From Haloplanus sp. GDY1 (GTDB lineage Archaea > Halobacteriota > Halobacteria > Halobacteriales > Haloferacaceae): a DNA stretch of 64,000 bases. Location: assembly GCF_023703775.1 (NCBI RefSeq), contig NZ_CP098514.1, forward strand, positions 2,577,998 through 2,641,997. The letters run 5' to 3'. Positions 17,062-62,606 of this stretch are shown here, piece after piece. A model generated the notes under the pieces. That model saw only the letters and a program-made list of their open reading frames with translations. It made no database searches and was not told where the DNA came from. The stretch's first letter is position 1. The number at the start of each line of letters is the position of its first letter. Made by a program: the position numbers and the translations under genes.

Positions 17062-20040
<2,979 letters not shown>

Positions 20041-22245: not shown

Positions 22246-22289
22246 TTTCGTTAGGTAAATTTATATTTGGCAAACCGGTCGAACGGGAC
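22246..22289 (+). promoter_or_regulatory. Promoter of the solute-binding/S-layer-paralogue operon
   Basis: GTTAGGTAAATTTATATTTGG (shown as landmarks: TTAGGT at 22250-22255, TTTATATTT at 22259-22267) precedes the ATG at 22290 by about 25-30 bases, consistent with a TATA box on a leaderless message. The TTAGGT word resembles a half-site of DtxR/IdeR-type metal regulators, but no second half is evident. Confidence 0.5.
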
Positions 22290-24017
22290 ATGGACACGAC
22301 ACGGTGTGTGGTCGTCGCGCTCGTGCTGGTCGCGGCGCTCGGACCCGCGGGCGTCGGCACCGCGGCGGCGCAGTCCGGGGACTGCGCGTTTCCGATCACG
22401 CGGACGGACGCGACGGGCACCGACGTGACGGTCGGCGAGGACCCCGACGAGGTGGTGACGCTCAACCCCAGCGCGGCACAGACGATGTACGAGATCGACG
22501 CGTGGGAGGAGGTCGTCGGCGTCTCGACGTACGCCTCCTACCTCCCCGGCGCCGACGACAAGACGACGGTGGGGACGGGCAACAGCGACGCGACGGTCGA
22601 ACAGACGCTCGCGCTCGATCCCGACCTCGTCCTCGCGCCGAACACCATCGACGGCGACGTCGTGACGCAGCTCCGCGACGCCGGCGTGACGGTGTACAAG
22701 TTCGAGATGGCCGAGGACCTCGACGACGTCGTCGAGAAGACGCGGCTGACGGGCGAACTCGTGGGGCACTGCGAGAGCGCCGACAGCCGCGCCGACGAGA
22801 TGGAACGGCAACTCGACGTGGTCAGGGAGGCCGTCGAGGACGTCGACCGGCCGAAGGTGTTCTACACCTTCTTCGGCTTCACCGCCGGCGAGGGGACCTT
22901 CATCCACGAGGTGATCCAGACGGCCGGCGGCGACAACGTCGCGGACGACAGCGCCGAGTTGAACGCCAACGGCGTCACCACGTCCGGTTACTACGACGTC
23001 AACGCGGAGTACGTGGTCGCGGCGAACCCCGAGTGGTTCGTCCTGAACGGCGACGAGTACGACACCGCGACGGTGCCCGCCGGACCGGGCGGGATCTACG
23101 AGGGCACGACCGCCTACCGGGAGGGCAACGCGGTCGTCCTCGACGCCAACGAGATCAGCCAGCCCGCCCCGCGCATCGTCAACGCCATCCTCGACCTCGT
23201 GCGGGTCCTGCATCCGGAGGCCTACGAGTCGGAGATCGAGGGGCGGGTCGAGACGTCGTCGCTCGGCGACCGGCGCGGCACGACCGCCGAACGCCTCGCG
23301 GACGGGAGCCTCAGCCTGCAGGCCTCGAACCTCGGCCGCTCGGATCGAGTGAGCTTCGACGTGCCCCCGCGGCCGAACGCGACCGCCTCGGTGCGCCGGG
23401 TCAACGTCACGCTCGCGACGGTGAACCCGACGTTCGAACTCCGCCTGCGACACGGCGGCGACGTCACGCCCCCGAACGGGACGCGCACCCTCGAAACCGT
23501 CGGCCTCTCCGGCAACGGCGTCTTCGCCGGCGACGTCGACCACCTGACGCTCAGGCTGGCGGTGAACCGGAGCCGACTCGACGGCGCCGACCCCGACACC
23601 GTCACCCTCTTCCGGTCGAACGGCACCGGCTGGGTGCCGCTGCGGACGACGCGGGTGACCGCGGGCGCGGCGAACGGGACCGCGGACGCCGCCACGGGCG
23701 GGAACGCCACGGCCGCGGCCGCGAACGACACCCTGGTCTACGAGGCGCGGACGACCGGGTTCGCGACGCTGCTGCTGGCCGTCGAGGAGCCCGACTCCCC
23801 GGCCGAACCGGCGACGAACGGGACGGCCGTCCCGACGGCGACGGCCACGGCGACGGCCGAACCCACGCCCACGGGGACGGGCGAGTTCCGGGCGGCGACG
23901 ACGGAGCCGCCGGCGTCGACCCCCACTCCGACGCCGACCCCCGGGAGCGCCCCCGGGTTCGGCCCGCTGCTCGCGGTCGCTGCCGTCCTACTCGCCGCCG
24001 CGGGGGTGCGCCGATGA
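22290..24017 (+). CDS. PGF-CTERM-anchored ABC-type substrate-binding protein
   Basis: A 575-residue exported protein. A signal peptide (residues 1-27, ending GTAAAQS) is followed by a BtuF/FhuD-type periplasmic-binding domain (about 35-310; landmarks VVTLNPSAAQTMYEIDAWEEVVG, DLVLAPNTI, VFYTFFGF and GGDNVADD), a beta-rich domain with Asn sequons, a Thr/Pro-rich stalk and a PGF-CTERM tail (APGFGPLLAVAAVLLAAAGVRR landmarks, last 22 residues). Such binding domains capture cobalamin, haem or siderophores; which one cannot be told. Unusually, no permease or ATPase gene is nearby. Its stop overlaps the next start (ATGA), so the two surface proteins are coupled. Confidence 0.88.
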   Translation: MDTTRCVVVALVLVAALGPAGVGTAAAQSGDCAFPITRTDATGTDVTVGEDPDEVVTLNPSAAQTMYEIDAWEEVVGVSTYASYLPGADDKTTVGTGNSDATVEQTLALDPDLVLAPNTIDGDVVTQLRDAGVTVYKFEMAEDLDDVVEKTRLTGELVGHCESADSRADEMERQLDVVREAVEDVDRPKVFYTFFGFTAGEGTFIHEVIQTAGGDNVADDSAELNANGVTTSGYYDVNAEYVVAANPEWFVLNGDEYDTATVPAGPGGIYEGTTAYREGNAVVLDANEISQPAPRIVNAILDLVRVLHPEAYESEIEGRVETSSLGDRRGTTAERLADGSLSLQASNLGRSDRVSFDVPPRPNATASVRRVNVTLATVNPTFELRLRHGGDVTPPNGTRTLETVGLSGNGVFAGDVDHLTLRLAVNRSRLDGADPDTVTLFRSNGTGWVPLRTTRVTAGAANGTADAATGGNATAAAANDTLVYEARTTGFATLLLAVEEPDSPAEPATNGTAVPTATATATAEPTPTGTGEFRAATTEPPASTPTPTPTPGSAPGFGPLLAVAAVLLAAAGVRR

Positions 24018-26704
24018 CCGCGGCGGTCGGTCGGGGCGCGCTCGCGGCGCTCTCGGTCGCCCTCCTCGTCGCCGTCGCCGCCACGCCGGCCAGCGGTGCG
24101 GCGGTCGGCCTCGGGGAGGCGGGCGTCTCCCCGACGACCGTCTCGACCGGCGCGACGACTACCCTCGACCTCTCGGTGAACGCGACCGGCGTGAACACCA
24201 CCGACGCGACGACTGACGCGAACGTCACGGTGACCGCCCCGGACGGCCTCGACCTCTCGGGGGCGGCGGTGACGGCCCGGGACGCGGCGCCGAACGCGAC
24301 GGGCGTGACCGCCGCCGTCGACGCCGGGGCGAACGCGGTGGTCGTCTCGTGGGACGACGACGCCGGCGTCGACGCCGAGGCGGTGACCGTGACCGTGACC
24401 GTCTCCGGCGTCGCCGTCGAGCGCACGGGCGATCACGGCCTGACGGCGACGGTCGACGCCGACGGCGACGGCGCCACGGACGCGAGCGGCGCGGTCGGCA
24501 CGGTCACCGCCTCGGCGACGGCGAGCGACCGGAGCGTCACGACCGAGGGGGCCGTCCTCTACCTCGGCGAGGAGGACGTGGACCTGACGGGACTCGACGG
24601 CGCCGCGCCGGCGGGCGAACCGGAGCGGTTCTACGGCGTCGGCGGCGGGGCCGAGGGCGGCGCCGCGGAGGCCGCCAACGCGACGGCCGTCGACGTGACG
24701 CTCGGCAACGGGTTCGCCCCCGGACAGTACGCCTTCACGGCCGGCGGCGACGCCGCCGTCGTCGTCGAGCGACCGAACGTGACCGACGTCGACCTCCATC
24801 CGGGCGGGACGGTCTCCGAGACGGAGGTGGCCGGTTCCTCGATCCCGGCGAGCGTCGAGACGCTCACCGTCGACCCGGACTTCGACTTCGCCGCGGCCGA
24901 CGACGCGACGGTGATCGTCGAGAACGCGGACGGACTGGCGGTCACCGACGAACTCACCGACGATCCGACGGTGGCGACCGACGGCGAGACGGTTCGACTC
25001 GACGTGTCCGACCTCGCGGTCGGCACCTACACGGTTCGGGTCGAGGGGGCCGACGACCTCGATCACGTGAACGCGACGGCGACGGTCCGGGTCCGCGAGG
25101 CGGCGCGCACGGTCTCGCTGAGTCGGACGCGCGTCGCCCGCGGCGAGTCGACGGTGGCGACGGTGAGCGGTCCGCCGGGCGCGGTCCGGCACGTCCGCGT
25201 GCCCGCCGCCGCGCTCCGCGACGGCGAGTCGGTGACCGTCCCCACCGCGAAGGCCCTGTTCGGCGGGGCCGAGGGCCTCGCGTTCGTCGACGCCGACGCC
25301 GAGGCGGGCGCCCTCTACGCCGTCGTCGGCCTCGACGACTCCGGGTTCGCCAGGGTCGAACTCGACACCGAACTGCTGGACGACGGCACCCACGACGTGG
25401 CCGTGGCGCGAAACGCCACCGCCGACCCCGAGGCGACGGTCCCCCTCACCGTCGACGACCGCGACGTCTCGGTGACGCCCGCCCGGACCACCCTCACCGT
25501 CGGCGAGACGGTGACCGTCTCCGGGACGGCCCGCGGCGCCGACGACGTGAAACTCTACGCCTCGGTCGGCGGGTCGTACGCGCCGCTGTACGAGGACAGC
25601 GAGGCCGACGAACTCGCGGAGGCCCGCGTCGACGACGGATCCTGGGCGGTCGACCTCGACACCCGTGCGGTGCTCACCGTCCCCGGTCGATACCAGGTCG
25701 TCGCCGTCGCGGACCCCGGATCGGCCCACCTGGGGTCGGCCGACCGGCTCCCCGAGTCGACGTTCGACGACTTCGACACCGTCGGGAGAGCGGCCGTCGG
25801 GACGACCGAGCCGTCGCTCTCGGCGTCGCTCTCGCGGTCCCGCATCGCCACGAACGCCGGCGACGAGGTTCGGGTCGCCGGCCGCGCGCCCGGCCCCGGC
25901 GAGACGGTCCGGGCATACGTCGTCACGCCCCGCGGCGACGTCGTCCCCCGCGACGTGACCGTCGGCGACGACGACGCCTTCGACTTCGAGTACGCCGCCG
26001 TCGACACCCCCGGTACGTATCGCGTCCTCGTCGTGTCGCCCGGCCGCGACGGCGCCTTCGCGCTCGCCGACGGCGGCGACGCGGCGGCCGTCCGGACCGA
26101 ACTCTCGGGGTCGGAGACGGCCGCCGAGGCCGCGGCCATCGTCCGCGACGCCTACGGCGGTGCCGGCGTCGACGACCGGCTCGTCGGCCTGAACGTCACG
26201 GCGACCGACCCCCGGGTGTGCGTCGAGACGGTGACGCGCCGGGACGGTGACCTCGTCGTCGCGGGCACCTCGAACCGCGAGAACGGCACGCTCGTCCTGC
26301 TGGACCTCCGGGAGGGGGCGAGCGTCGCCGCCGTCGCGGACGCCGCGGTGAACGCCTCGGGGCGGTGGCGAGCGACCGTCGACGTCTCGGGCCTCGACGC
26401 CGGCGAGTACACCCTCCGGGCGGAGACGGCCGACGCGGCCGACGCGCGGACGGTGAGCGTCGGGGCGGGAGCCGCGTCCCCGGCCGCGACGCCGTCAGCG
26501 ACGCCGACCGAGGCGCCGACCCCGACGCCGTCAGCGACGCCGTCACCGACGGCGACCGACCCCGACGCCGCTGCCGCCGGCGAGACGCCCGGAACGGCCG
26601 GGCGGGCGACCCGCACCGCGGCGTCGGGTCCCGGCTTCGGCGCCCCGACCGCCCTCGTGGCGGCGCTCTCGGCGCTCCTCGCCGCGGTCGGTCGGCGCCG
26701 GTAG
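24014..26704 (+). CDS. S-layer-glycoprotein-like surface protein with PGF-CTERM anchor
   Basis: An 896-residue exported protein: signal peptide (1-28, TPASGAAVG), a cohesin-like N-terminal beta domain (about 33-170), several Ig-like repeats, a Thr/Pro linker and a C-terminal PGF-CTERM helix. From about residue 185 to the end it matches the order of the S-layer glycoprotein encoded at 59610-62606: LGEEDVDL/FQGESDLQL, GTYTVRVEGADDL (337) against GTYTISVAGSDDL (366), TVGETVTVSGTARG (497) against VVGSEVDVNGTASEG (556). About eleven Asn-X-Ser/Thr sequons are present. It is translationally coupled to the binding protein before it. I infer a paralogue that forms a surface complex with that protein; its role is unknown. 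Confidence 0.82.
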   Translation: MTAAVGRGALAALSVALLVAVAATPASGAAVGLGEAGVSPTTVSTGATTTLDLSVNATGVNTTDATTDANVTVTAPDGLDLSGAAVTARDAAPNATGVTAAVDAGANAVVVSWDDDAGVDAEAVTVTVTVSGVAVERTGDHGLTATVDADGDGATDASGAVGTVTASATASDRSVTTEGAVLYLGEEDVDLTGLDGAAPAGEPERFYGVGGGAEGGAAEAANATAVDVTLGNGFAPGQYAFTAGGDAAVVVERPNVTDVDLHPGGTVSETEVAGSSIPASVETLTVDPDFDFAAADDATVIVENADGLAVTDELTDDPTVATDGETVRLDVSDLAVGTYTVRVEGADDLDHVNATATVRVREAARTVSLSRTRVARGESTVATVSGPPGAVRHVRVPAAALRDGESVTVPTAKALFGGAEGLAFVDADAEAGALYAVVGLDDSGFARVELDTELLDDGTHDVAVARNATADPEATVPLTVDDRDVSVTPARTTLTVGETVTVSGTARGADDVKLYASVGGSYAPLYEDSEADELAEARVDDGSWAVDLDTRAVLTVPGRYQVVAVADPGSAHLGSADRLPESTFDDFDTVGRAAVGTTEPSLSASLSRSRIATNAGDEVRVAGRAPGPGETVRAYVVTPRGDVVPRDVTVGDDDAFDFEYAAVDTPGTYRVLVVSPGRDGAFALADGGDAAAVRTELSGSETAAEAAAIVRDAYGGAGVDDRLVGLNVTATDPRVCVETVTRRDGDLVVAGTSNRENGTLVLLDLREGASVAAVADAAVNASGRWRATVDVSGLDAGEYTLRAETADAADARTVSVGAGAASPAATPSATPTEAPTPTPSATPSPTATDPDAAAAGETPGTAGRATRTAASGPGFGAPTALVAALSALLAAVGRRR

Positions 26705-26812: not shown

Positions 26813-28213
26813 ATGAACGTCCGCATCCGCGGCATCTACACGACCGCGCTCACGCGCCGCTTCCTCGACGCCGGTCACGCCGTCGTCGACGCCTCCGATC
26901 CGATCCGCGAGCGGTTCGACGCCGAGTTCGGCACGGCGACCCACGACGTGGCGGTCGAGACCACCGCCGACCGGCAGGGCGTGGGCGTCACCGGCGCCCC
27001 CGACGCCGTGGCGACGGCCGTCGAGTCCCTCTCTCTCTCGCGCGACACCCTCGCGTGGGAGTCCCCCGCCCCGCGGGACGCCGTCTTCGACGCCCGCGTC
27101 ACCGAGACCCTGGGGAGCGGCGCGGTGTGTGACCTCGGGGACTGCGAGGGCTTTCTCCCCTTCGGCAACGCCGACGACCACGTCGCCGTCGGCGACGAAC
27201 GCCGCGTCCGGGTCGACGAGTCGGCGGCGCCGTGGACCGACCGCCGGCCCGTCCTCGACACCGACGTGCGGGTGCGCGCGGGCCCGGCGACGCTCGTCCA
27301 CGGCGCCGCCGGCGTGAGCGTCGACACCCGGGACGACGCCGCCGGGCGCGAACTCGCCGGGATGACCGACCTCCTCGACGTCGACCCGCCGGAGGGGTGG
27401 GGTCTGCGCTGGGACGACGCGGCGACCGACGCCGACATGGGGGCGCTGGAGACGGCGCTCTCCCGGGCGGTCGACCGCGCCGAGGCGGTGCCCGTCGACG
27501 ACCCCGTCGCCCCGGTTCGTCGCGTCGCCGCCCCCGCCGCGACGACGTGGGTGTGGTTCGGCCGCGAGGCCAGGTTCGCCCTCGACGACCGCCGGCGCGA
27601 CGTGACGACGACGATGCACGGCCACCACCGGATCAAGGCGGCCTCCGGGGACGCGAGTCGGGCCGTCGACTTCGCGGAGGCGCTGTCCGACGACGGGGGC
27701 GCCCGCGCCGACGGCGAGTTCCCCTTCGAGGCCGTCACCGACACCTTCGGCCCCGCCGTCGGCGACGACGTCCGCCTCGAACACGGCAAGCCCGACGGCC
27801 GACTGATCGTCCTCGGCCGGGCCGCGGTGACCGACCGCGACGCCGACGGCACGCTCACGCTCCGCCGGGAGATGACCGCCGGCGGCACCTACGACGCACT
27901 CGGCGTCGACCGGGCGGCCGGCGACGTGGCGACCACCAAGGTCCGCGAGGGGCGGTGGTGGTATCCAACCGTCTACCGCGGCGCGGACGGCGAGCGGAAG
28001 GGCACCTACGTCAACGTCTGCACGCCCGTGGAGTGTTTCCCGGACGCCGTCCGCTACGTCGACCTCCACGTCGACGTGGTGAAGGGACCCGACGGCGAGG
28101 TGCGCCGGGTCGACGACGACGAACTCGACGCGGCCGTCGACGCCGGACGGGTGTCCGAGGCGCTGGCGGAGAAGGCGCGGTCGGTCGCGTCGAGCCTCGT
28201 CGAGGCGCTGTGA
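26813..28213 (+). CDS. FAU-1-type RNA-binding protein / probable RNase E/G-like nuclease with DUF402 domain
   Basis: A 466-residue protein with an N-terminal RNase E/G-like part (VRIRGIYTTALTRRFLDAGHAVVDAS; the S1-like GAVCDLGDCEGFLPF near residue 102) and a C-terminal DUF402 domain (about 330-430; YVNVCTPVECFPDAVRYVDLHVDVV landmarks). This is the arrangement of archaeal FAU-1, reported to bind AU-rich RNA and to act on 5S rRNA precursors. It is a stand-alone gene after the S-layer paralogue, separated by 108 bases. Assignment is by architecture; the activity of this copy is not shown by sequence alone. Confidence 0.83.
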   Translation: MNVRIRGIYTTALTRRFLDAGHAVVDASDPIRERFDAEFGTATHDVAVETTADRQGVGVTGAPDAVATAVESLSLSRDTLAWESPAPRDAVFDARVTETLGSGAVCDLGDCEGFLPFGNADDHVAVGDERRVRVDESAAPWTDRRPVLDTDVRVRAGPATLVHGAAGVSVDTRDDAAGRELAGMTDLLDVDPPEGWGLRWDDAATDADMGALETALSRAVDRAEAVPVDDPVAPVRRVAAPAATTWVWFGREARFALDDRRRDVTTTMHGHHRIKAASGDASRAVDFAEALSDDGGARADGEFPFEAVTDTFGPAVGDDVRLEHGKPDGRLIVLGRAAVTDRDADGTLTLRREMTAGGTYDALGVDRAAGDVATTKVREGRWWYPTVYRGADGERKGTYVNVCTPVECFPDAVRYVDLHVDVVKGPDGEVRRVDDDELDAAVDAGRVSEALAEKARSVASSLVEAL

Positions 28214-59279: not shown

Positions 59280-59609
59280 GGACAACGTCCCCCGCCCGCG
59301 ACGGCGGGCGTGGTCGCCCCTCGACGGCCCGCCGGTCGGGCGCCACCTCTGTCCGCCCTCCCGCCGGTCGGCTGTCGTCCACGCGGATATCGGATCCGGC
59401 GTATGAGGCCTCGACACCCGATATTTTTGCCTTCAGGGAGACACGCGGAAAAAAATGTGAGATTAGATAAGTTAGATACACAAAGTATTTACCTTATCTG
59501 AGTAACAGATCCAGACACCCCTACCAGTGGTCTGGCCGTCCCCGGTCGGGCCACGAACCCGGCATGAAAGAGGTCCCCTCCGGATTGCCAGCGAATCCAA
59601 TCGCAACAC
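59280..59609 (+). promoter_or_regulatory. 330-base region before the S-layer gene: AT-rich promoter and leader
   Basis: No gene is seen here. The first 130 bases are GC-rich; then an AT-rich island (59418-59505) holds ATATTTTTG, an A-run GGAAAAAAATGTG and two close ATTAGATA/GTTAGATA words. A TATA-like AGTATTTA at 59484-59491 would set the start near 59512, leaving a leader of about 95 bases before the ATG at 59610. Haloferax csg is known to have a leader of roughly this size. A weak hairpin TGGCC/GGCCA (59533-59553) lies in the leader. Confidence 0.6.
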
Positions 59610-62606
59610 ATGACAGACTATAACCAGAAAGTCCGCGCGGTCGTACTCGCGGCGCTGATGGTGTTCAGCGTGTTCGCTGGCACCGTCGCGTTCTCCGGGA
59701 CGGCCGCCGCGGAAGCGGCGAACCTTCAGAACGCGTCCGCTACCGACATTACCACTAGTGTCGCTAGCACGACGCATACGGTACAGGTCGACTTCGAACT
59801 GAACAACTCCACCAGCGACACGCTGGAGTTCGACTACTCGGGCGTGTCCAACGTCGATCCCCAGTCGGTGAGCAACGAGTCGCTGGTCGGCGCATCGGGT
59901 GGTGCGTCCGTCTCGTCGGGCACCGTCTCGGGTAGTACGGTCAGCGTTCCGATCGACGACACAAACACCGACAACACGAACGCCACCGCCACGCTGTTCA
60001 TCGACGTCACCGTCGACTCCCAGGGTGCGAGTTCGGGGTCCGGAACGATCAACATCGACGCTGCGAACAACGCCAGCGCGAGTACGAGCACCTCGGTCGC
60101 TCTCGTCTCGCCCAATCCCGGCGCCGATAGCCGTGCCCTCAACGCCGACGGCACCGGCGACTTCAACACCGAGGACGGCGAAGGGTACATCTTCGACGGC
60201 GCGACCGTCTTCCAGGGCGAGTCCGACCTCCAGCTCGGTGGCGCGCTCGCGAACAACGAACTCCTGAAGACGGCCGGCGACGCCGAGGGCGTGCCCCTCG
60301 AACTCCCGGACGTCCCGCAGACCCAGGAGACGGGTCGCTACACGACCACCGGCGCCACGGGCGCCCCGGGCGTGACGGTCACGACCCCGCGTGTCACCAC
60401 GCTGGAGATCGTCAACACGAACGGCGAGGACATCGCCGGCGGCTCGGTCGGTGAAGGCGACGCCGACTCCGGCGCCGGCGAACTCGCCGTCGTCGCTGCC
60501 TGGAACTACGAGGAAGCCGAGGACCTCGAAGTCACCGTCGAGGACGACACCGGTCTCGACGTGACCGGTGACGTCATCCTGGGCGGCGCGGTTGCCGACT
60601 TCGACGTCGAGGGCGGCGTCGACGTCCGCGACGGTGAACCCACCGAGATCCAGGTCTCGAGCAACGAAGTCGGTTGGGACCTCGACCTCTCGGACCAGGG
60701 CACCGGCACGTACACCATCTCGGTCGCCGGCTCGGACGACCTCGGCTTCGGTGAGGCGACCCAGTCGACGACCATCACGGTCACCGGCGACGACGACGCG
60801 AACCTCGAGATCGACGAGGACGACGTCGTCCGCGGTGAGGACGTCCGCTTCGAGATTCAGGGCTCCGACGCCGGCGACCGGCACACGGTCCTGATCGAAT
60901 CCGACGACTTCCGCGACGGCGTCACGGGCGAGAACGCCCAGCGCATCTTCCGTCAGGTCGGTGACACCGACAGCGTCGGTGTCGTCACCGACAACGGCAA
61001 CACGGCCGTGCCCCGGGGCACCACGCCCAGCGGCACGATCGAGTACGCGTACGCGAACGTGACCATCGACGACGACACGGGCGTCGGCGTCGGTCAGATC
61101 GAGACGCAGTACCTCGACGACTCGGACGTGGACGTCTTCCTGTACGAGCAGGGCTTCCTCGTCCCGTTCGACCAGAACGGCCAGGCTGCCGAGGACAACG
61201 AGACGGACGACCAGACCCTCACCATCGAGCAGGGTGACCTCTCGATCGAGTCGCCCGGCAGCACGTACGTCGTCGGGAGCGAGGTGGACGTGAACGGGAC
61301 GGCCTCCGAGGGCATCGACGACGTCGCCTTCTTCGTCCGCCGACAGAACGACTACCAGCTGCTCCAGATCGACGGCCAGGACACGATCACCGTCGACGCG
61401 GACGGCACCTTCGAGGAGGAGGACGTCATCCTCTCGGAGGGTAACGGTCCCGGTAACAACGAACTGTCCCAGCCCGGCACCTACCGCCTCGGCGTGATCG
61501 ACGCCGGCGGCGTCGGTGGCACCATCGGTCTGGGCTCCGGCGAGATTTCGCGGCTGACGACCTCGGAGTTCAACACGAACACGAGCTCCCAGAAGTCGCT
61601 GCGGGTGCTCGACACGGAACTGCAGGCGAGCTTCAAGACCGTCGGCGGCCAGGTGGCCGTCGAGGACAACGAGGTCAACGTCTCCGGGACGGCCTTCGGC
61701 TCGCAGCAGGCGACCGTCCTCTTCGTCGGTGAGCGTGGGAACGTGGCGCTTCACTCCGTCAGCGTCGACGACGACAACACGTTCGACGACGATGACCTCA
61801 CCGTCTCCGAGTCGATCGGCGGGAGCGGTCTCGCCGAGGGCGAGGTCAGCGGTCACGTCCTCATCCCCGGCCGCGACGACCAGTTCGGTGACGGGAGCTT
61901 CGACGCGCCGAACGTCGGCTCGACGACCAGCTTCGACACCTTCGTGACGGAGCTGGACAACGACAACTCGGGTCTGACGGGCCAGCAGGTCCGCTCGCGC
62001 ATCCTCGATGCGACGACCGAGGAAGTCGCGAGCGACGACCGGATGGTCACGACGCGCTTCCGCTACGCGGACGCGCAGACGACCGTCGACACGGTCTACC
62101 CCGAAGGCATGGAAGCCTCGGGTGTCAACCCGGTCGGTGTCGACGACACGCTGGTCGCCGAGGGTGGCACGAACCTGCGCCCCGACGACAACTCCATCAC
62201 CGTCGAACTGCTGACGCAGGACGGCGACTCGGTCGCGCTGACGACGACCGAGGAGTGGTCCTTCGACGGCACCTGGATGGTCTCGCTGGAGCTCGAGGAC
62301 GTGCAGACCGGCTCGTACATCCTCGAGGCCGACGACAGCTACAACACTGACGTCGTCGAGGTCGAGATCGTCCAGCAGGTGCAGACGGCGACGCCGGAGC
62401 CGACGGACACGCCGGCACCGACGCCGACGGACACGCCGGCACCGACGCCGACGGCGACGCCCGAACCGACGCCCGAACCGACGCCGGAGCCGACGCCGAC
62501 TGACACGCCGACGCCCACCGAGGGCGGCGGTCCCGGCTTCGGTGCCATCGTCGCGGTCATCGCGCTGCTCGCGGCCGCGCTGCTCGCGACCCGGCGCGAC
62601 GACTGA
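59610..62606 (+). CDS. csg: S-layer glycoprotein with PGF-CTERM anchor
   Basis: A 998-residue major cell-surface glycoprotein. A signal peptide (1-34, ending TAAAEAA) leads to a mature protein beginning ANLQNAS; Ig-like repeats follow, with FDGATVFQGESDLQL near residue 195, then GTYTISVAGSDDL (366), VVGSEVDVNGTASEG (about 556) and others. About ten Asn-X-Ser/Thr sequons are visible (for example LQNAS, NNST, DVNGT, EVNVS). The C-terminus has a Thr/Pro/Glu linker with an 8-residue repeat, GGGPGFG and a hydrophobic helix (PGF-CTERM) that is cut and lipid-anchored by archaeosortase in relatives. It has its own long leader and a strong terminator. Confidence 0.95.
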   Translation: MTDYNQKVRAVVLAALMVFSVFAGTVAFSGTAAAEAANLQNASATDITTSVASTTHTVQVDFELNNSTSDTLEFDYSGVSNVDPQSVSNESLVGASGGASVSSGTVSGSTVSVPIDDTNTDNTNATATLFIDVTVDSQGASSGSGTINIDAANNASASTSTSVALVSPNPGADSRALNADGTGDFNTEDGEGYIFDGATVFQGESDLQLGGALANNELLKTAGDAEGVPLELPDVPQTQETGRYTTTGATGAPGVTVTTPRVTTLEIVNTNGEDIAGGSVGEGDADSGAGELAVVAAWNYEEAEDLEVTVEDDTGLDVTGDVILGGAVADFDVEGGVDVRDGEPTEIQVSSNEVGWDLDLSDQGTGTYTISVAGSDDLGFGEATQSTTITVTGDDDANLEIDEDDVVRGEDVRFEIQGSDAGDRHTVLIESDDFRDGVTGENAQRIFRQVGDTDSVGVVTDNGNTAVPRGTTPSGTIEYAYANVTIDDDTGVGVGQIETQYLDDSDVDVFLYEQGFLVPFDQNGQAAEDNETDDQTLTIEQGDLSIESPGSTYVVGSEVDVNGTASEGIDDVAFFVRRQNDYQLLQIDGQDTITVDADGTFEEEDVILSEGNGPGNNELSQPGTYRLGVIDAGGVGGTIGLGSGEISRLTTSEFNTNTSSQKSLRVLDTELQASFKTVGGQVAVEDNEVNVSGTAFGSQQATVLFVGERGNVALHSVSVDDDNTFDDDDLTVSESIGGSGLAEGEVSGHVLIPGRDDQFGDGSFDAPNVGSTTSFDTFVTELDNDNSGLTGQQVRSRILDATTEEVASDDRMVTTRFRYADAQTTVDTVYPEGMEASGVNPVGVDDTLVAEGGTNLRPDDNSITVELLTQDGDSVALTTTEEWSFDGTWMVSLELEDVQTGSYILEADDSYNTDVVEVEIVQQVQTATPEPTDTPAPTPTDTPAPTPTATPEPTPEPTPEPTPTDTPTPTEGGGPGFGAIVAVIALLAAALLATRRDD
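62395..62520 (+). repeat. Thr/Pro-rich tandem repeat in the S-layer gene
   Basis: A 24-base unit is repeated exactly at 62401-62424 and 62425-62448, coding Asp-Thr-Pro-Ala-Pro-Thr-Pro-Thr; degenerate copies with Glu-Pro-Thr-Pro follow to 62520. It encodes the flexible, probably O-glycosylated stalk before the membrane anchor. Length may vary between strains through repeat slippage. Confidence 0.75.

Follow-up and report, generated by a model that had tools for sequence, protein, structure and literature searches.

A long BtuF-type binding protein encoded near an S-layer-derived protein in Haloplanus and Salinigranum, and its possible part in vitamin B12 capture

A gene pair between conserved flanks

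The window, by which we mean the whole 64-kb stretch of Haloplanus sp. GDY1 DNA that was analysed, contains two forward-strand genes whose reading frames share 4 bases (ATGA). Gene 1 (22290..24017) encodes a 575-residue protein recognised by TIGR04281, PRK03379, and PF01497, a long form of what is probably a BtuF-type corrinoid-binding protein. Gene 2 (24014..26704) encodes an 896-residue partner derived from an S-layer glycoprotein, as judged by TIGR04216, BLASTP, tree, and fold. An earlier sequence-only reading had described this overlapping pair, and both frames are indeed present. Each product starts with a hydrophobic signal-like segment and ends with a Thr/Pro-rich stalk and the motif (A/G)PGFG, after which come a hydrophobic segment and arginines, in line with the signal peptides and stalks that had been proposed. 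PGF-CTERM anchors had been assigned to both proteins as well; we consider the anchor well supported in gene 1 but doubtful in gene 2. The TIGR04126 scores, which bear on membership among the ArtA-processed PGF-CTERM proteins, are 19.9 bits for gene 1 and 21.0 for gene 2, short of the curated cut-off of 24.5, with the motif visible in both. In gene 1 the anchor comprises APGFG, a hydrophobic helix, and RR (23940..24014, forward strand), and PGFG is kept in all 11 orthologues compared. The anchor-like segment of gene 2 carries GPGFG (26615..26701, forward strand), the proline of which is not conserved: valine, alanine, or aspartate stands in its place in five of six Haloplanus orthologues.

The pair lies between two conserved forward-strand genes. 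Upstream is a UvrA-type ABC protein (17062..20040), probably UvrA judging by its sequence, which is not an importer; this flank is 90–93% identical across all Haloplanus species examined. The downstream neighbour is a DUF402 protein gene (26813..28213; PF04167), present as a single copy at the same site in 12 of 12 Haloplanus genomes. We found neither a permease nor an ABC importer ATPase in the local neighbourhood of the pair.

Gene 1 scored 344.4 bits against TIGR04281, above the curated cut-off of 325, which places it in the family of PGF-CTERM-anchored ABC transporter substrate-binding proteins. It also matched the BtuF model PRK03379 (E = 6.6e-16) and PF01497 (94 bits), so the BtuF-type binding domain claimed for it was recovered. 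The substrate-binding domain spans residues about 54–309 (22449..23216, forward strand), with Glu-104 and Glu-240 invariant in 17 family members. BtuF proteins are marked by a conserved glutamate in each lobe for docking on BtuC. Glu-104 aligned with such a glutamate of Escherichia coli BtuF; the BtuF alignment stops short of Glu-240. An extra C-terminal domain follows at residues about 330–500 (23277..23790, forward strand), which in our alignment is confined to the S-layer-linked form and a few other long forms and gives a marginal PGF_pre_PGF match (E = 0.29). Long TIGR04281-like proteins of about 570–594 residues also occur outside Haloplanus and Salinigranum (L045 9436-11220, from genome G014, and L115 1951-3666); one of these adjoins a peptide-type ABC transporter, and no S-layer paralogue lies nearby. 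In our tree, the linked binding proteins of Haloplanus and Salinigranum form a single clade (96/100), apart from the cassette binding proteins of Haloplanus, which cluster with those of other Haloferacaceae.

Kinship of gene 2 with S-layer glycoproteins

The window also encodes an S-layer glycoprotein of the organism (59610..62606, forward strand; TIGR04216, 746.8 bits). It is one of three full-length copies, the others lying at G000:C1:2981014-2983374 and G000:C2:98378-100753, and one of the three is carried on a 155-kb contig. BLASTP aligned gene 2 with the window copy collinearly over 600 residues (E = 1e-11), reproducing the pairing of residue 337 with 366 and 497 with 556 that had been read from the sequence. 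Gene 2 matched TIGR04216 with 150.3 bits (E = 6.5e-44, residues 178–894), below the curated cut-off of 400, and aligned by sequence with the Haloferax volcanii S-layer protein 7PTP (E = 1.9e-13), matches well beyond what chance would give.

A fold match to S-layer glycoproteins had been proposed as a check on this kinship, and it was found. The top Foldseek match of the gene 2 model was 7PTP (E = 6.3e-43), and VIA-align superposed the two with a Z score of 17.4 over 627 residues, compared with 12.1 for the next match. The 31-row alignment behind the model included S-layer proteins, so the match is not fully independent of sequence and confirms rather than discovers the relation. This model, from 31 homologues, had a mean pLDDT of 83 and was good per domain; because its pTM was only 0.45, the arrangement of the domains is unsure. 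With only seven close orthologues as input, the model reached a pLDDT of just 59 and was poor.

The S-layer-like Ig domains of gene 2 occupy residues 172–821 (24527..26476, forward strand). They are preceded by an N-terminal Ig-like domain, delimited from the model and from identity comparison, at residues 30–169 (24101..24520, forward strand), which is presumably the outermost. Gene 2 proteins are 67–72% identical among species, and the N-terminal domain is 75.4% identical within Haloplanus gene 2 and 61% across both genera. In true S-layer proteins, the same domain is 27–28% identical in either genus, compared with about 65% elsewhere. The N-terminal domain of S-layer glycoproteins (the columns of gene 2 residues 30–171) is thus hypervariable in Haloplanus and Salinigranum, even between paralogues.

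In a midpoint-rooted tree, the gene 2 proteins group together (100/100); their neighbours are the S-layer proteins of Salinigranum, and those of Haloplanus lie apart. Gene 2 therefore stems from a Salinigranum-type S-layer lineage, whether inherited from an old common ancestor or acquired by transfer. We rejected the idea that it is a recent duplicate of the window S-layer gene, since it groups with its Salinigranum orthologues next to the Salinigranum S-layer proteins. The earlier description as an S-layer paralogue thus stands as regards homology and fold and falls as regards a recent copy of the organism's own S-layer gene.

Distribution, the distant btuCD cassette, and a shared promoter element

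We compared 16 genomes, 12 from Haloplanus and 4 from Salinigranum. The overlapping pair is found between the UvrA-type and DUF402 genes in 7 of the 12 Haloplanus genomes (GDY1, G001, G002, G003, G006, G007, and G009), and all seven keep the ATGA overlap. H. ruber has gene 1 without gene 2, its gene 1 being shortened and devoid of the extra C-terminal domain, and G005 has gene 2 without gene 1, with a binding protein in the cassette. The site is empty in the other three. A profile search of the family returned strong gene 2 orthologues outside Haloplanus in Salinigranum only. All four Salinigranum genomes carry an orthologous, long binding protein (48–55% identical) adjoining an S-layer glycoprotein gene; a small gene without a Pfam match stands between the two. 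The gene 2 orthologue follows the S-layer gene in three of the four genomes and lies elsewhere in G096, where the binding protein still adjoins the S-layer gene. Altogether, the linked binding protein and gene 2 occur together in 11 genomes, one without the other in 2, and neither in 3 (p = 0.027, without correction for kinship), and an S-layer-type gene adjoins the linked binding protein in 11 of 12. The two genes had been expected to stay together in related genomes, and they do so in seven Haloplanus species and, as the same cluster, in three Salinigranum. Salinigranum genomes contain 5 to 12 matches each to the gene 2/S-layer family, and on one contig (L101 3667-14197, G061:C2) S-layer and gene-2-like genes, some of them split, form a tandem run.

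A TIGR04281 gene usually lies divergently beside genes for an ATPase and a BtuC-type permease, with SRP19 and Trm5b-like genes on either side. In GDY1 such a btuCD cassette is found on contig C1 (about 1062380-1064680), some 1.5 Mb away from the gene pair. Its permease scores above the BtuC cut-off (529.5 compared with 461 bits) and is the genome's only strong FecCD match; the corrinoid ATPase beside it scores 479.8 bits, just under its cut-off of 537. The sequence-only reading had noted the lack of a permease, which holds locally and was rejected for the genome as a whole.

The GDY1 cassette contains no binding-protein gene, with 118 bases between SRP19 and btuC. This gene is likewise missing from the cassette in six pair-bearing Haloplanus genomes, GDY1 included, and in H. 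ruber; the four Haloplanus species without gene 1 keep it, and G009 has both the linked and the cassette copy. In all four Salinigranum genomes, the S-layer-linked gene is the single TIGR04281 gene, and the btuCD cassette has no binding protein. Across the 16 genomes, 1 has both copies, 11 only the linked one, 4 only the cassette one, and none lacks both (Fisher p = 0.003, kinship not corrected for), so that the cassette copy has been lost from 11 of the 12 genomes with an S-layer-linked binding protein.

Cobalamin, haem, and siderophores had all been considered as ligands. Because the genome's only BtuC/BtuD cassette lacks a binding protein of its own, a corrinoid (B12) is the most likely of these, at the expense of haem and siderophores. 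A full match to the corrin-ring gene cbiH was absent from GDY1 and five relatives and present in six, and a B12-binding enzyme domain occurred in all. With the domain and without cbiH, GDY1 should therefore depend on imported corrinoid, provided that the B12-binding enzyme is used. Among the species with the pair, cbiH is absent from five of seven and present in two, which are likely prototrophs; we accordingly abandoned the idea that the pair goes strictly with B12 auxotrophy.

Finally, we compared promoters. The btuCD cassette promoters have TTGCAGTAGGTAAATACTTGTTGCA in common, and a resembling element, TTTCGTTAGGTAAATTTATATTTGG, stands 44 to 20 bases before the start of gene 1 (22246..22270, forward strand; PWM match). 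As a conserved 25-base imperfect palindrome, TTGCAGTAGGTAAATACTTGTTGCA precedes btuC and TIGR04281 genes in several haloarchaeal genera (L058, L053-L057, L148-L151), and it is a candidate operator of a B12-uptake regulon. The matrix was learnt from Haloplanus btuCD cassettes only and was run on 813 upstream regions, some of them common to divergent genes. Genes for BtuC and for binding proteins, drawn from many genera, headed the ranking, followed by the linked genes of Salinigranum, with no unrelated gene between. The four Salinigranum linked genes scored 24 to 29.5 bits and the Haloplanus ones 5 to 16.4, with 10.9 for gene 1 of GDY1, whose site is the second-best in the window; in most linked genes the element lies 44 bases before the start. 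The promoter of the window S-layer gene (59477-59501) gave a 17.1-bit match, the highest for genes outside btu systems, and the first unrelated gene other than this one scored 11.5. These data suggest common regulation of the linked genes and btuCD in Salinigranum, with an element that may have decayed or altered in Haloplanus. A cobalamin riboswitch was rejected, as Rfam gave only a tRNA within the 64-kb window.

Interpretation and comparison with known systems

Our overall reading, to which we give a probability of about 0.55, is that a relocated BtuF and an S-layer-derived partner form the surface end of B12 import, with a scaffold part that we infer. As a BtuF anchored in the membrane, gene 1 would bind corrinoids and pass them, by docking on BtuC, to the BtuCD about 1.5 Mb away, in place of the binding protein whose gene remains in the btuCD cassette of most relatives. 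That gene 1 is the relocated BtuF of this distant transporter is highly probable. Gene 2 would be an S-layer glycoprotein copy freed from lattice duty and now co-translated with gene 1. Most likely it would serve as a scaffold that touches the binding protein from beside or above, on the S-layer's inner face, and keeps a site there accessible to the ligand. That gene 2 does function as such a scaffold, or as a partner in capture, is plausible at somewhat less than even odds. The S-layer fold match and the persistence of the two genes together support the original proposal that the pair may act in ligand capture at the surface of haloarchaea. The genes are separable, as H. ruber, G005, and G096 show, the pair species include likely B12 prototrophs, and the motif is weak at Haloplanus promoters and also matches that of the window S-layer gene; these points count against our reading.

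The strongest competing explanation, though a less likely one, is that gene 1 is a relocated BtuF whose link with the S-layer is merely historical. An ancestral cluster, of which the Salinigranum gene order could be a picture, would have been shortened in Haloplanus, leaving gene 2 as a minor S-layer protein, or a silent one, that takes no part in uptake; the solitary gene 2 of G005, the separate one of G096, and the solitary gene 1 of H. ruber agree with this. The overlap retained in every Haloplanus pair and the adjacency of an S-layer-type gene in 11 of 12 genomes speak against mere history, and the identity among gene 2 proteins, together with their conserved outer domain, argues for a specific role.

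Alternatively, in keeping with the pore suggested by the sequence-only reading, gene 2 could be a true lattice subunit that builds a different patch of the S-layer, or a pore, around the receptor. The full set of S-layer domains with its fold, and the S-layer gene that adjoins the binding protein in Salinigranum, would suit such a subunit, yet we consider it improbable: 39 of the 95 positions invariant in the S-layer proteins of both genera are altered in gene 2, the PGF motif is not kept, and the surface-glycoprotein signal peptide model TIGR04207 gave no match in gene 2, compared with 45.9 bits for the window S-layer gene. The contrast between its conserved outer domain and the hypervariable one of true S-layer proteins makes a partner outside the lattice, derived from an S-layer protein, the most likely role of gene 2. 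The conserved outer domain and the lost S-layer motifs fit a specific partner protein, whose counterpart may be gene 1.

Least probable is that gene 1 binds haem or a siderophore and uses another permease or acts as a receptor without transport: its best solved-structure match by sequence is the iron-binding protein 4m7o (E = 3.1e-13), with a haem-binding protein and BtuF ranking behind, and some species have further FecCD cassettes, but the one strong FecCD permease of GDY1 is of the BtuC type, the complementary loss concerns exactly the btuCD cassette, and TIGR04281 genes of other genera adjoin the cobalamin synthesis genes CbiE, CobB, CobS, and CbiB.

A bolder form of our preferred reading would be a dedicated B12 port in the S-layer of Haloplanus and Salinigranum, in which gene 2, produced along with the receptor, replaces or lines a lattice position and presents the cell's only BtuF, and this BtuF feeds the remote BtuCD under shared regulation; we regard this as speculative and less likely than not. 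In the open-access literature that we searched, we found no description of a BtuF/S-layer-paralogue arrangement, and our data suggest a previously undescribed, S-layer-linked B12 capture device in the two genera. How solutes pass through the archaeal S-layer to binding proteins is an open question. With this gene pair, a specific role of S-layer paralogues in capturing nutrients becomes open to experiment. Here a binding protein has apparently moved out of its transporter cassette and into association with an S-layer-derived protein, and the transporter has been left without its former partner; this took place one or more times in each genus, or in their shared past. Together with the common promoter element, the near-exclusive presence of linked and cassette copies offers a means of recognising the haloarchaeal B12-uptake regulon.

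The closest known system is the corrinoid ABC transporter BtuCDF of Halobacterium, for which cobalamin uptake was shown genetically (Woodson et al. 2005, as reviewed in PMC1447603). The two have in common a BtuC/BtuD-type permease and ATPase and, probably, a binding protein of the TIGR04281-type family; in GDY1, unlike in Halobacterium, 1.5 Mb separates BtuCD from a binding protein that carries an additional C-terminal domain and is paired with an S-layer paralogue. Where a BtuF is recognised by being encoded within the btuCD cassette, gene 1 stands outside. Gene 2 resembles the H. volcanii S-layer glycoprotein (HVO_2072 family, 7PTP) in its collinear series of Ig-like domains and its fold and differs from it in scoring far below the family cut-off, in lacking the signal-peptide motif, in its weak PGF, and in its conserved outer domain. 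The Sulfolobus bindosome (PMC2910488), with class III (pilin-type) signal peptides and sugar-binding proteins, resembles the pair in the notion that substrate-binding proteins are arranged at or within the S-layer, whereas the pair has nothing homologous to it and its signal segments appear by eye to be of the Sec type. Surface lipoproteins of the outer membrane of gut Bacteroides help to capture B12 for a transporter (PMC6143338); homology is not expected here, and the analogy with the pair is one of role.
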